Positions 1 through 5,378 of a DNA stretch of 33,270 nucleotides are shown piece by piece (position 1 is the stretch's first letter; each line of letters opens with the position of its first letter). The notes under the pieces were generated by a model that searched no databases, had not been told where the DNA came from, and was given only the letters and a program-made list of their open reading frames with translations. The stretch lies in NCBI GenBank assembly GCA_025449635.1, contig JANWIZ010000012.1, positions 1-33,270 on the forward strand, read 5' to 3'. Source of the DNA: Patescibacteria group bacterium. Lineage in GTDB: Bacteria; Patescibacteriota; Microgenomatia; Woykebacterales; RBG-16-39-9b. The position numbers were made by a program, and so were the translations under genes.

Positions 1-1299
1 ACTTTCAAACATATACCGCTGACTCCGTTTGTAGAACCAAACATCGTTGTCGCCGACCAGACCTGTGTCATCCAGAGGATCTGGGGGTGTGATTCCCTTC
101 AACTCTGCTTCCTTCTTGCGAAGGTTGGTGGCTACCTGTCCTAGATCGATGTTTCGTCCGCCGGAGATGATGACATGGCCGGTGGTCTCGTCCACTCTGA
201 CCAGAACATCCATCCCAAGGTCATTGCGCGCCAGGCGAGGGATTAGTACTGCATTGGTCTCCACGATACCAAGCTTAACTGGACGGCCTCTGTGCATCAA
301 CTCCTTAGGGTACTCTCGTACCTTAGAAAGTTCCGCACGAGCCGCTTCCCCCTCCTCAATCTCGGCTTGTACCGAGTCGAGGATCATGTCGACATAAGTC
401 GACGCTAACTCCGGCTCGTCGCTGAGAACCAGACTAAGGGCCTTGATTGCCCCAAGTGTGTTCTCCCAGCTAGAGCTAGAGTTCGGGCTCTCAAGCAGCT
501 TCTGCCAAATCGGGTGTCGCTCGACTCCAAGCCAATCACCTAATTGGGTCACCTGCTCGTTGAGCTCAAGCCACAGCTTCTTGAACTCTGGGTTGGCGTC
601 ATTCAACTCAAGCATTGACCGAATCGCTTCAGTCACTACTTCGTTGAGATAGTAGACCGCGGTCTGATCGTTCATGTATCCCAAGGACACAGTTCGGATC
701 ATACCTTGAGTCCGGGTCCAGCCGCCTGGTCCCTTACTAAAGACGCTGTGGTCCCAATCGCCGACCGTTTTCCTAATTGGGTCTGTGGATAGCCCTAGCA
801 GCTTAAGAGTATTGAGAACCACTGAATGGGTCTCGTCCTCTCTTGCAGGCTTGGAGAACGGGCCGTTACCAACGCAGATTGGGATCTGACCAGCTTCAAT
901 CAGCTTTTTCAGATCCGTCTCGGTTGGAGCGGCGGCTCGATCGGAAACGATGCTGAAGTTCCGGACATGGATACCAAGGCGGTGGCCTTTGGCAACCAAA
1001 TACCCCATCACTCCAAAGTCGTGCCGGCGGGCATGGCCGTGGAGAAAGAACGTAAAGTCCCTGGCTTGCGCCGAAGACTTTCGTTCATCTCGCTCTATCC
1101 GAATCCGCTGGAAGATTGGTCGCAGCATCCCGGCCGCCTTCGAAAGAAGACCTTCCGGGAATGTTTTTGGTTCGAATGAACCACTGACCCTCTCCCTTTG
1201 GATGCGCTTGCGACGCTCCTCGATCGAAAAGCCACCCAAAGTCTCCTCTGTGTCACCTTCGCTGAGTAACGCCTGAACGTTCCTATTTTCAGTTGTCAA
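1..1299 (-). CDS. Partial CDS (3' end off the left edge), conserved-looking protein of unknown function; weak resemblance to MYG1/DHH-like architecture
   Basis: Manual reverse-complement translation gives 433 in-frame codons with no stop from a TTG at 1299 to base 1 (LTTENRNVQALLSEGDTEETLGGFSIEERRKRIQ...DFTFFLHGHARRHDFGVMGYLVAKGHRLGIHV...IPICVGNGPFSKPARED...IISGGRNIDLGQVATNLRKKEAELKG...). AGGAG at 1308-1312 lies 8 nt upstream of the TTG. Absent from the ORF track, apparently because it has no stop in the window. Confidence 0.88.
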   Translation of the reverse strand, partial: MTTENRNVQALLSEGDTEETLGGFSIEERRKRIQRERVSGSFEPKTFPEGLLSKAAGMLRPIFQRIRIERDERKSSAQARDFTFFLHGHARRHDFGVMGYLVAKGHRLGIHVRNFSIVSDRAAAPTETDLKKLIEAGQIPICVGNGPFSKPAREDETHSVVLNTLKLLGLSTDPIRKTVGDWDHSVFSKGPGGWTRTQGMIRTVSLGYMNDQTAVYYLNEVVTEAIRSMLELNDANPEFKKLWLELNEQVTQLGDWLGVERHPIWQKLLESPNSSSSWENTLGAIKALSLVLSDEPELASTYVDMILDSVQAEIEEGEAARAELSKVREYPKELMHRGRPVKLGIVETNAVLIPRLARNDLGMDVLVRVDETTGHVIISGGRNIDLGQVATNLRKKEAELKGITPPDPLDDTGLVGDNDVWFYKRSQRYMFES

Positions 1300-1387
1300 A
1301 GAACACTCTCCTTCTACTGATCCTTACCGATATTCCTGGCTTGTGGCCAAGAAGCTATTTAACAATCCTGTTCTACAGCTTTTTGAA

Positions 1388-1413
1388 CACAAAAAGACCA
1401 CTCTGACTGGTCT
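1388..1413 (-). terminator. Intrinsic terminator between the structured leader and the 1-1299 gene
   Basis: Minus strand AGACCA-gtcagag-TGGTCT followed by TTTTTGTG. Confidence 0.7.
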
Positions 1414-1432
1414 CCTACTTTTAATTTCTAAG

Positions 1433-1512
1433 AATTTGGCCCTTAAGCTGCGGGGGTTGTTGTATTCACCTCCTTCTTTTAGAATTCCCCGTAATTTCTT
1501 ACGGGCCAAATT
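1433..1512 (-). ncRNA. Candidate structured RNA / 5' leader
   Basis: Minus-strand RNA: 10-bp stem AAUUUGGCCC/GGGCCAAAUU, G.A mismatch, 4-bp UAAG/CUUA, inner CGGGG/CCCCG, apical segment containing AAGGAGGUGA; a competing hairpin CCCGUAA-GAAA-UUACGGG is also possible. Confidence 0.6.
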
Positions 1513-1545
1513 TCCAAAAACTAAATATTCTCTTTATTGAGGTAA

Positions 1546-1574
1546 ATACTACCATAAATTAGAGGAAAAGTCAA
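1546..1574 (-). promoter_or_regulatory. Sigma70-type promoter for the structured leader and 1-1299 gene
   Basis: Minus strand TTGACT (1574-1569), 17 nt, TAGTAT (1551-1546). Confidence 0.6.
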
Positions 1575-1597
1575 GTACTATGGGTTAGTAATTGATA

Positions 1598-2426: not shown

Positions 2427-5378
2427 TCAAACCTTCGAAGCTTTTGATAAAGGGCAAATACTGCTATAAACACAATAATTACAGGCTGGGACTCGGCCAA
2501 AATATTTCGGATTAGCAGGGAAGCTGTCTGTCAGTAAATTGTTCTGAATACTCTTAGCGACTTCAATGACTTGAGTTTCAGTTTCTTTGATCTTTTCTAA
2601 AGTCGGTTTGTAGCCACCGACAAGTGAAGAACCCAAATCATGTATTCCAACAAAATCCGGTACTCTCCCATAATTTTTATAATAAGCTAGAGTATAAACT
2701 TTGAGTTGAATACTATCCTTGGCATTTTTTTCTAATTCCTGTTCAGTTCGGTTTTCGGTTGATTTGTAATCAATAATTCTCACTTCTCCGCCAACTTCAT
2801 CGATTCGATCGTATCTCCCGGAAACTACAACTTCTACTTGATCAGTTTTCAAACCAAACCGAAACGGTTTTTCGATAAAAGTTGGTAAGATTTTATTACC
2901 TATTTCCCGATTATAAAAATTTTTTAGAACTTCTTTAGCCTGAATCAATCGCTGCTCTTCGTGAGCTGCTGTTAAAAAGCCTTCGTTGACCCAGGTATTT
3001 TCGAGAACTTCAAAGACATGGTCAAGGGTTGGTTTTTGTTTGTTAAGCCTCATTTGCCAAAAATCAGCTACAGCTGAGTGGAGTGCAAAACCATAAACAA
3101 CGGCGTGATGGCGTAAAATTGGTAGTCGAAGTATGTGAGCATAGCGATATTTGTAAGCACAAGTTTCGTAATCGTCGATTGAACCTTGGGAAAGCCGAAT
3201 TATCTTCGTACTCTTTTGGCTATGATTTAACTTTGGTTTTTCAACAAAATTAAATTGCTCAATTTTCTCGATTGGATCTCGATTTGATGGTTTGGCTTCA
3301 GTAAATGGTCTGTCTAGAGCTTCAAGAACAAAGGGGGAAACCTTTTTTAGTCGTTTACCACCCGTTTCCCGAGACCAAGTGTAGTAAAGTTTTCTTTTTG
3401 CCCGTGTCGAACCCACATAAAACAACCGTCGCTCCTCTTGCGTGTGAAAATCTTCTGAGGTAGCTATCTCCTTGATCAATTTATCTGGTAAAGGAAGTTG
3501 ATTAGACCTTTCTCGTGATGGAAACCTATCGGACACAAGAGCTACCATAAAAACCACTGGAAACTCAAGACCTTTGGCAGCGTGAACTGTCAAAATACTA
3601 ACGGCGTCGAGTTCGGGGTCAAACTCGGCACTTGAAGGATCATCCCCAACCGATCTCATAGTCTCGAGATAATCAACAAAGGCTTTGACAGATTCGTTTT
3701 GAACTAAATCAATAAATTCACGAATTTTATCGAAAAATCTTCCGATGTTTTGAATCTTCAATAACGATTCAACACTACCTTGGAGTTCCAAATTTTTGAG
3801 ATAGTTAGTTTTTTCTAGAAATCTATAGATTATTCTGCCAACATTTTCTTTCTTCGAAAGTTCAAGTAATTCTTCGAAATCATTATTTATTTTTTTGACT
3901 ATTTCTCTAGCTTTTTCAGAAATTTCCAATTCCTTAAGGTTATCTATGTTTTGAAATACATGATTTAAACTGCGATTCTCTCTTCTAGCTATGTTTGACA
4001 AGGTAATGCAATCTTTTAACGGGAGTTCGTAAATTTCACTAACCGCTAGGTTGTAAAGACTTAAACTATCATCAAAATTTGAAATTGAGTTTAACAAGGA
4101 TATAAGTAAACCTATTTCTGGCTGAGTATAGAGTCCGGAAATCCCCGAAAATTTATAAGGAATCCCACGAACATTCAATGCTCGTATAAAACTGTCTGCT
4201 TGGCTATTAGCTCTAACTAAAACCGCAATGTCTCGATAAGCTGTTTTTTTATCTTTGATAAGTTTCCCAATTTCACTGGCTACAAAATCAGACTCTTCGG
4301 AAAGAGTTTGAAACGAAAATTCTTTTGGACCCTCACCGTTTTCGGCATTAAATGATTTTAGTTTTTTATAAATTTTGTTTTTAAACTCTAACCTATCGGG
4401 GTTGTTAAACTGAATCAGCCGGTAACTGGCGTCAAGTATTCCTTGGCTTGAACGGTAATTTTGATTTAATACGATTTGTTTAGCTTTTTTGAAATCATTT
4501 TTGAATTTCAAGATATTAGAAATTGAAGCACCCCGAAACTTATAGATACTTTGATCATCATCTCCAACGACACAAATGTTTTTATGTTTTGCGGCTAATA
4601 GTTTGACTAGTTCATTCTGAGCGTAGTTAGTATCCTGAAACTCATCCACAAAAATATATTTAAATTTACTTTGATATTCTCTGAGAATTTCTGGCTTTTC
4701 CCTTAGCAATTTTAAAGTTAGGTAGACTTGATCCCCATAATCTATTCTTCCGCTAGTTCTCTTCAGATCTTCATATTTTGAATAGAAACTTGCCAACTCA
4801 CTTTGTCGAGCAAATTCCTCTGCTAACTCAACTTGGTTTGTACCAGTAGCTTTTTTGGCCTTTCTTGCCAAACTTTTTACAAACTTTAAATAGTCCTCTG
4901 AACTAATATCTTCATCTTTAGATCGACTAATCAATGAAAGAATTGCTTCTATAAATTTCGTTGGGTTGGAAAGTGGTCGATATATCTTAAGATCAAAGGC
5001 AAAGAGATTTTGTCGGACAAAAAGTATTTGCTGAGGTTTTGTTAGCACTTTAAAATCAGTAGGCAAACCAAGTTCCAAAGCTTTCTCACGAAGAATACGA
5101 TCGCCAAAAGCGTGAAATGTCGATATCCAAGTGTCGATGTAACCATAGGGAACCAGAACATCGACCCTCTCTTCCATCTCAGCAGCGGCTTTTTCCGTAA
5201 AAGTTAGGGCTAGGATTTCAGAAGGTTTAGCTAGTTTTTTTTCAATCAGATAGGCGATACGCCGAGAAATTACCGCCGTTTTCCCAGTCCCTGCACCAGC
5301 AATAACTAACAAAGGTCCTTTTGCAGTTTTTACAGCTTCAAATTGCTCTTTATTTAAACCCTCTAGTATTTTACTCAT
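2427..5378 (-). CDS. UvrD/REP-family ATP-dependent helicase with C-terminal RecB-like PD-(D/E)XK nuclease domain and possible Fe-S cluster
   Basis: GAGTGKTAVISRRIAYLI Walker A, VDEFQDTNYAQ, GDDDQSIYKFRGA, VHAAKGLEFPVVF, RRLFYVGSTRAK; nuclease VRIIDYKST; Cys set CAYKYRY...CNYCVYSSICP. Confidence 0.92.
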   Translation of the reverse strand: MSKILEGLNKEQFEAVKTAKGPLLVIAGAGTGKTAVISRRIAYLIEKKLAKPSEILALTFTEKAAAEMEERVDVLVPYGYIDTWISTFHAFGDRILREKALELGLPTDFKVLTKPQQILFVRQNLFAFDLKIYRPLSNPTKFIEAILSLISRSKDEDISSEDYLKFVKSLARKAKKATGTNQVELAEEFARQSELASFYSKYEDLKRTSGRIDYGDQVYLTLKLLREKPEILREYQSKFKYIFVDEFQDTNYAQNELVKLLAAKHKNICVVGDDDQSIYKFRGASISNILKFKNDFKKAKQIVLNQNYRSSQGILDASYRLIQFNNPDRLEFKNKIYKKLKSFNAENGEGPKEFSFQTLSEESDFVASEIGKLIKDKKTAYRDIAVLVRANSQADSFIRALNVRGIPYKFSGISGLYTQPEIGLLISLLNSISNFDDSLSLYNLAVSEIYELPLKDCITLSNIARRENRSLNHVFQNIDNLKELEISEKAREIVKKINNDFEELLELSKKENVGRIIYRFLEKTNYLKNLELQGSVESLLKIQNIGRFFDKIREFIDLVQNESVKAFVDYLETMRSVGDDPSSAEFDPELDAVSILTVHAAKGLEFPVVFMVALVSDRFPSRERSNQLPLPDKLIKEIATSEDFHTQEERRLFYVGSTRAKRKLYYTWSRETGGKRLKKVSPFVLEALDRPFTEAKPSNRDPIEKIEQFNFVEKPKLNHSQKSTKIIRLSQGSIDDYETCAYKYRYAHILRLPILRHHAVVYGFALHSAVADFWQMRLNKQKPTLDHVFEVLENTWVNEGFLTAAHEEQRLIQAKEVLKNFYNREIGNKILPTFIEKPFRFGLKTDQVEVVVSGRYDRIDEVGGEVRIIDYKSTENRTEQELEKNAKDSIQLKVYTLAYYKNYGRVPDFVGIHDLGSSLVGGYKPTLEKIKETETQVIEVAKSIQNNLLTDSFPANPKYFGRVPACNYCVYSSICPLSKASKV

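Follow-up and report, generated by a model that had tools for sequence, protein, structure and literature searches.

A candidate family of structured RNAs with an extended, start-less Shine–Dalgarno loop in one family of Patescibacteria

Standalone structural RNAs of bacteria, 6S RNA (RF00013) among them, are short, highly structured and without a fixed downstream gene, and decoys of the CsrB/RsmZ type titrate a factor, CsrA, by presenting its recognition sequence in loops. To our knowledge, few regulatory RNAs have been described in lineages of the candidate-phyla-radiation type, to which the bacteria considered here, with genomes of 0.5–1.5 Mb, appear to belong. Here, we analyse a candidate RNA on the minus strand of a 33,270-nucleotide stretch of patescibacterial DNA (the window). 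Like 6S RNA, it is short and structured, has in the window its own promoter and terminator and lacks a conserved downstream gene, but instead of a long apical helix past an open bubble it carries an extended Shine–Dalgarno (SD)-like loop, and the 6S covariance model does not match it even at E values up to 5. With CsrB/RsmZ-type decoys it shares the idea of titration by a loop-displayed recognition sequence, but it has one loop rather than many, would target the 16S rRNA tail rather than CsrA and has no CsrB-family match; CsrA-type binding and a 6S identity were considered and set aside. In the window, its promoter, alternative helices and terminator stand in series as in transcription-attenuation riboswitches, from which it differs in having no conserved downstream gene, no universal alternative hairpin and no match in Rfam. 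Finally, extended SD initiation regions have the same AAGGAGGUGA core and the same pairing with the 16S tail as its loop, and the SDs of protein genes in the family share its flanking pattern (AAGGAGGUGAAUAC), whereas in the RNA the site is displayed by the loop of a hairpin whose stem has 22 bp and neither an AUG, GUG or UUG nor a conserved frame follows. In a literature search, we came across no description of an RNA whose loop displays an SD lacking a start codon.

The element consists of a promoter, a hairpin and a terminator (Table 1). An earlier note on this DNA had read from the letters a TTGACT-17-TAGTAT promoter, an inner CGGGG/CCCCG helix, an alternative CCCGUAA-GAAA-UUACGGG hairpin and a separate terminator with a U-tract, followed by the SD and TTG of a gene at 1–1299. 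We find each of these in place: the promoter has in addition a TG ahead of its −10 hexamer, the terminator-like hairpin ends in a run of five Ts, and 3′ of it AAGGAG precedes the TTG start. The closing stem, given there as an interrupted 14 bp, also exists but is longer, with 22 positions and one mismatch in the window, and the loop sequence AAGGAGGUGA had been missed. The 9-of-12 match of the promoter hexamers is at chance level (mean 1.7 in shuffles), and the terminator-like hairpin was read by eye and seen in the predicted fold; the promoter scan did not flag it on the minus strand. The 18-nucleotide box AACCCATAGTACTTGACT (1586–1569) occurs once in the window, with 0.02 occurrences expected, and recurs ahead of various unrelated genes in the order and the class (L004–L009) as well as on contig C19 of the window's own assembly. 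Being unique in the window and recurrent at other loci of relatives, it looks like a promoter signature of the lineage, apparently a lineage-wide element longer than the usual −35. The promoter predicts a transcription start near 1539.

Table 1 Features of the RNA locus in the window (all on the minus strand)
Feature	Positions	Strand	Details	Basis
Promoter	1546..1586	−	Upstream box AACCCATAGTAC; −35 TTGACT 1574–1569; spacer 17 nt; extended −10 TG-N-TAGTAT, hexamer 1551–1546	Promoter scan
Candidate RNA, ~149 nt	1391..1539	−	Fold z-score −4.5	Inferred from promoter and terminator positions
Closing stem P1, 5′ strand	1503..1524	−	1524–1503 pairs with 1442–1421	Covariation, five homologues
Closing stem P1, 3′ strand	1421..1442	−		Covariation, five homologues
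Alternative hairpin	1488..1505	−	CCCGUAA-GAAA-UUACGGG, GNRA loop	Kept in window, G004 and G001; absent from G003 and G006
Inner helix	1451..1491	−	CGGGG/CCCCG, 1491–1487 with 1455–1451; encloses ribosome-binding-like loop	Folding
AAGGAGGUGA	1466..1475	−	Extended SD complementary to 16S 3′ tail; no start codon at working distance	
Terminator-like hairpin	1391..1413	−	AGACCA-GUCAGAG-UGGUCU, T run 1395–1391	Sequence reading and predicted fold
UvrD/PcrA-type helicase with PD-(D/E)XK nuclease domain	2427..5378	−	Conserved upstream neighbour of RNA	
ORF 1–1299	1..1299	−	TTG start, 433 aa, runs off contig; GC about 0.55 compared to about 0.37 nearby	

Besides the assembly of the window (G000), we searched six other genomes of the family (G001–G006) and found homologues of the RNA in four of them. 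Those in G004 and G001 are similar at the DNA level (81% and 79%), and a covariance model built on these two and the window (R1) found diverged copies in stretches around the same locus in G003 (38 bits, E value 1 × 10−7) and G006 (28.8 bits, E value 2.6 × 10−5). A five-sequence model (R2) scores 64–101 bits in all five members, partly by construction, and 25–38 bits on the opposite strand. The contig of G002 stops inside the helicase gene. G005 keeps the FemAB-family neighbour and the end of a GC-rich open reading frame (ORF) and has no match to the RNA, which is thus not essential in the family.

Across 382 genomes of the class and 381 of the phylum, R2 found, among the matches inspected, no convincing member beyond the family; two further matches in the phylum have E values of 0.004–0.007. 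DNA similarity searches of the 382 class genomes gave matches in the family only, the rest being short chance matches or promoter and SD matches. The weak matches of R1 beyond the family are tandem repeats, SDs of protein genes or low-complexity sequence, and a pattern search of viral contigs returned no such RNA. At the gathering thresholds of Rfam (4,227 families), a tRNA is the only match in the window (the earlier note had recognized no known riboswitch class); under relaxed thresholds, the best sub-threshold matches are chance hits to miRNA models (22–26 bits compared to thresholds of 86–90). We regard these sequences as a candidate new RNA family, limited in the searches made to one bacterial family.

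The region folds more stably than shuffled sequence (z-score −4.5 for 1388–1545 and −2.7 for 1425–1530), and the closing stem P1 covaries, as the earlier note had proposed to look for in homologues. In the five-sequence alignment, 94.4% of the P1 stem cells are paired, and 9 of the 22 pairs are altered on both sides among five homologues from five genera; in 500 shuffles, not one of the five measures was equalled, sliding the partner strand by a single column lowers the pairing to 51–55%, and RNAalifold agrees. This covariation rests on five sequences, of which the two distant ones entered through the structure model but come from the locus where a homologue was expected. Read in the minus-strand sense, G-U pairs number 13 against 3 A-C mismatches, which identifies the minus-strand RNA as the folded object. 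Judged from these comparisons, the element is a structured non-coding RNA with a helix that covaries beyond chance.

Beyond the stem, what all five homologues share is an extended SD sequence in the loop (AGAAGGAGGUGAAUAC in the window, GGAAAGGUGGUGAAUAC in G004, GAAAAGGAGGUGAAUAU in G001, AAAAGGAGGUGAUUAA in G003 and AAAAAGGAGGUGAAAAC in G006). MAFFT and the model place the loop of G003 several columns off, and loop conservation was therefore judged by reading rather than by column counts. AAGGAGGUGA itself occurs once in the 33-kb window, where 0.04 occurrences are expected. The 3′ tail of 16S rRNA, read in G001, G003 and G004 (the 16S gene is missing from the G000 assembly), is GGATCACCTCCTTTCT, with the tail segment GGAUCACCUCCUUUCU, and the most conserved segment of the loop is the one complementary to it, kept in five of five. 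For each of the five, the duplex predicted between loop and tail lies between −17.8 and −20.8 kcal/mol, a level attained by 45 of 60,000 random 22-mers from family DNA. The loop core of G004 differs (GGUGG), yet its duplex is still predicted at −17.8 kcal/mol. At the level of sequence, the complementarity of the loop to the 16S tail is conserved, which need not mean function. Folding predictions pair part of the loop, with an unpaired probability that is low in G006 and most of G003 and intermediate in the window, G004 and G001; docking may therefore need the loop to open, especially in G003 and G006.

None of the five homologues has an AUG, GUG or UUG at working distance behind the loop SD, and, by reading of the sequences, the frames behind it differ and none is shared. 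In five genomes of the family, 47 of 66 distinct AAGGAGGTGA sites inspected are followed at 3–12 nucleotides by an ATG, GTG or TTG that opens an ORF of at least 25 amino acids, mostly at a spacing of 6–12 nucleotides. The remaining sites include two antisense to 16S, a few ahead of frames that seem to open at AUA or AUC, two that directly precede a terminator, and those of the RNA, whose four copies with the exact 10-mer have no ORF of that kind behind the site. The G000 assembly holds 12 AAGGAGGTGA sites, one of them in the window (0.04 expected), compared to 2 of a reversed control. With an SD-like loop and no start codon, the RNA thus has the form of the lineage's strong initiation signals minus the start.

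Such signals are not the rule at the gene starts of the window, of which 16 of 18 form a duplex with the 16S tail weaker than −8 kcal/mol, so a strong SD seems to be the exception in the lineage. Start-less AAGGAGGTGA sites also occur elsewhere: two RNAs that resemble each other, one in G001 (L136, ~1400–1560) and one in G003 (L173, ~200–290), carry one with AGCAAAGGAGGTGAAA...TTAG right before a terminator, the G001 copy following what reads as a cobalamin-riboswitch-like stretch (GCCGGGTGTGATTCCCGGGGAGTGCCGCTACTGT). In G006, a second one (L057, 747–756) lies ~140 nucleotides downstream of the RNA, past a terminator-like hairpin.

A near-perfect ribosome-binding sequence without a start codon makes ribosome docking more probable than a riboswitch. 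Our preferred reading, to which we give a probability of roughly 0.4, is that the non-coding RNA uses the anti-SD tail to dock on the 30S subunit, as a decoy or a tether. The 22-bp stem, about two A-form turns, would hold out the loop with its extended, start-less SD; the loop would pair with 16S rRNA at the 3′ tail, which is free in the 30S subunit; and the docked RNA would occupy the mRNA platform, where the lack of a start codon would preclude initiation. As a ribosome decoy or tether, the RNA could in this way tune translation. Its transcription, its binding to the 30S subunit and its physiological effect are what we infer from sequence.

The genomic setting provides the main rival. In all four RNA-bearing relatives, the RNA lies between the gene for the UvrD/PcrA-type helicase with a PD-(D/E)XK domain (64–66% identical to that of the window in G004 and G001, and 57% over most of G003; the G006 contig holds only its last codons) and a convergent FemAB-family gene (44–61% identical among the four). 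A promoter just past the helicase gene and about 500–600 bp ahead of the RNA would there yield a transcript of ~700 nucleotides facing FemAB, with the RNA near its 3′ end. Its order is a T-run leader with a boxA-like TTTTTGT.CTTTGAAAA, comparable to GTACTTTAACAACCGAAAATG before 16S in G003, then a GC-rich ORF of 55–58 amino acids and a GC-rich hairpin; the RNA follows, and in most of the relatives a terminator closes the series. The RNA could accordingly be a stable 3′-end hairpin, or a processing stem of the RNase III type, with an SD-like loop that is incidental or merely purine-rich. A 22-bp stem would suit a double-strand-specific nuclease, the stem's own T run in G003 could terminate transcription, and the place past a short ORF and before a terminator fits. 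In the window, however, the order is promoter, RNA, terminator and only then the GC-rich ORF 1–1299, so that no ORF precedes the RNA, which stands behind its own promoter, and a plain stability hairpin needs no 16S-complementary loop of the kind kept in all five homologues. We hold this explanation to be doubtful, though a serious competitor to docking on the ribosome.

The ORFs at the helicase–FemAB locus are GC-rich (55–62%; 1–1299 in the window, L026 6030–6310, L027 5670–5850, L054 1087–1259, L057 312–479 and L058 1–310) in a lineage otherwise at ~37% GC, stand behind strong promoters and are without detected relatives. A relationship is seen between the small ORFs of G003 and G006 (z-score 9.8) but not for those of G004 and G001. 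From genus to genus most of the ORFs are unrelated, the picture given by an expression site that can exchange its cargo. The persistence of the RNA beside such differing neighbours speaks for a role independent of them. At the proposed TTG of ORF 1–1299, TGTTCTTTGACAACTGAAAATAGG (1282–1305, minus strand) closely resembles the boxA of rRNA leaders (GTACTTTAACAACCGAAAATG in G003 and GTACTTTGACAATCGAAAAG in G009); antitermination of the rRNA type may therefore act there, and the TTG start is uncertain.

The same neighbours, without Pfam matches where tested and mostly non-homologous between relatives as in a gene-capture spot, could place the element on the border of a variable site of gene exchange, as an inverted repeat that serves recombination or replication as DNA and not as RNA. 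We consider this improbable: the excess of G-U over A-C and the higher model scores on the RNA strand both point to RNA, the loop is conserved in a way that fits the 16S tail, and the conserved sequence is found where the stem meets the loop rather than at the outer ends.

The apical part of the RNA, less settled than the closing stem, bears on the layout that the earlier note had taken for transcription attenuation. In the window, G004 and G001, a 7-bp GNRA hairpin, invariant but for its loop (GAAA, GCAA and GUGA, respectively), competes with an arrangement of UAAG/CUUA and CGGGG/CCCCG, and the fold containing it is less stable than the minimum free energy fold by 4.6, 3.4 and 2.2 kcal/mol, respectively. 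A three-way junction with the full closing stem and a 4-bp GNRA hairpin is a further possible apical fold. G003 and G006 have simple loops and neither of the competing arrangements, and, as the GNRA hairpin is missing from two of five homologues, a helix switch is not a conserved core feature. A riboswitch-like attenuator leading ORF 1–1299, in which the two arrangements control the terminator, draws on the closeness in energy of the two folds and on the order of elements in the window, which runs from promoter and competing helices to terminator, SD and TTG. However, neither apical alternative overlaps the terminator stem, Rfam offers no riboswitch match, and the ORF has no homologue in the RNA-bearing relatives, where what lies past the RNA is a convergent FemAB gene. 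ORF 1–1299 matches nothing in Pfam, NCBIfam, PHROGs or PADLOC and has no homologue in 190 other genomes of the class, among which are the nine remaining members of the order with the four RNA-bearing ones; it is therefore unlikely to be a target that the RNA has kept. With neither downstream gene nor alternative hairpin conserved, a riboswitch is very improbable, and of the earlier proposal, a riboswitch-like leader or small RNA, the covarying stem and the empty Rfam search favour the second half, while the first half is unsupported; an attenuation role specific to the window is possible.

Several strong AAGGAGGTGA sites elsewhere (L144, offset 122, minus strand; L163; L181; L120) are followed by frames that apparently open at AUA or AUC, which suggests unusual start codons in the RNA-bearing family. 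Also very improbable is that the RNA leads a very short peptide with such a start (AUA, AUU or AUC) behind its strong SD, as these sites, an AUU at 7 nucleotides in G006 and an AUA at 6 in G003 might allow, because the only such codon in the window, G004 and G001 lies 3 nucleotides from GGAGG, closer than at almost any other site (mostly 6–12), and the products, about 6–19 amino acids long, would be unrelated.

Returning to docking on the 30S subunit, its strongest form would be a natural ribosome decoy: a dedicated RNA family in bacteria with ultra-small genomes, whose start-less loop signal binds the anti-SD and sets aside or tethers 30S subunits, a proposal that we make tentatively and hold to be rather unlikely as a whole. 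If true, a start-less ribosome-binding site on a small RNA would be an unusual kind of translation control, one that competes for the ribosome rather than for the mRNA.
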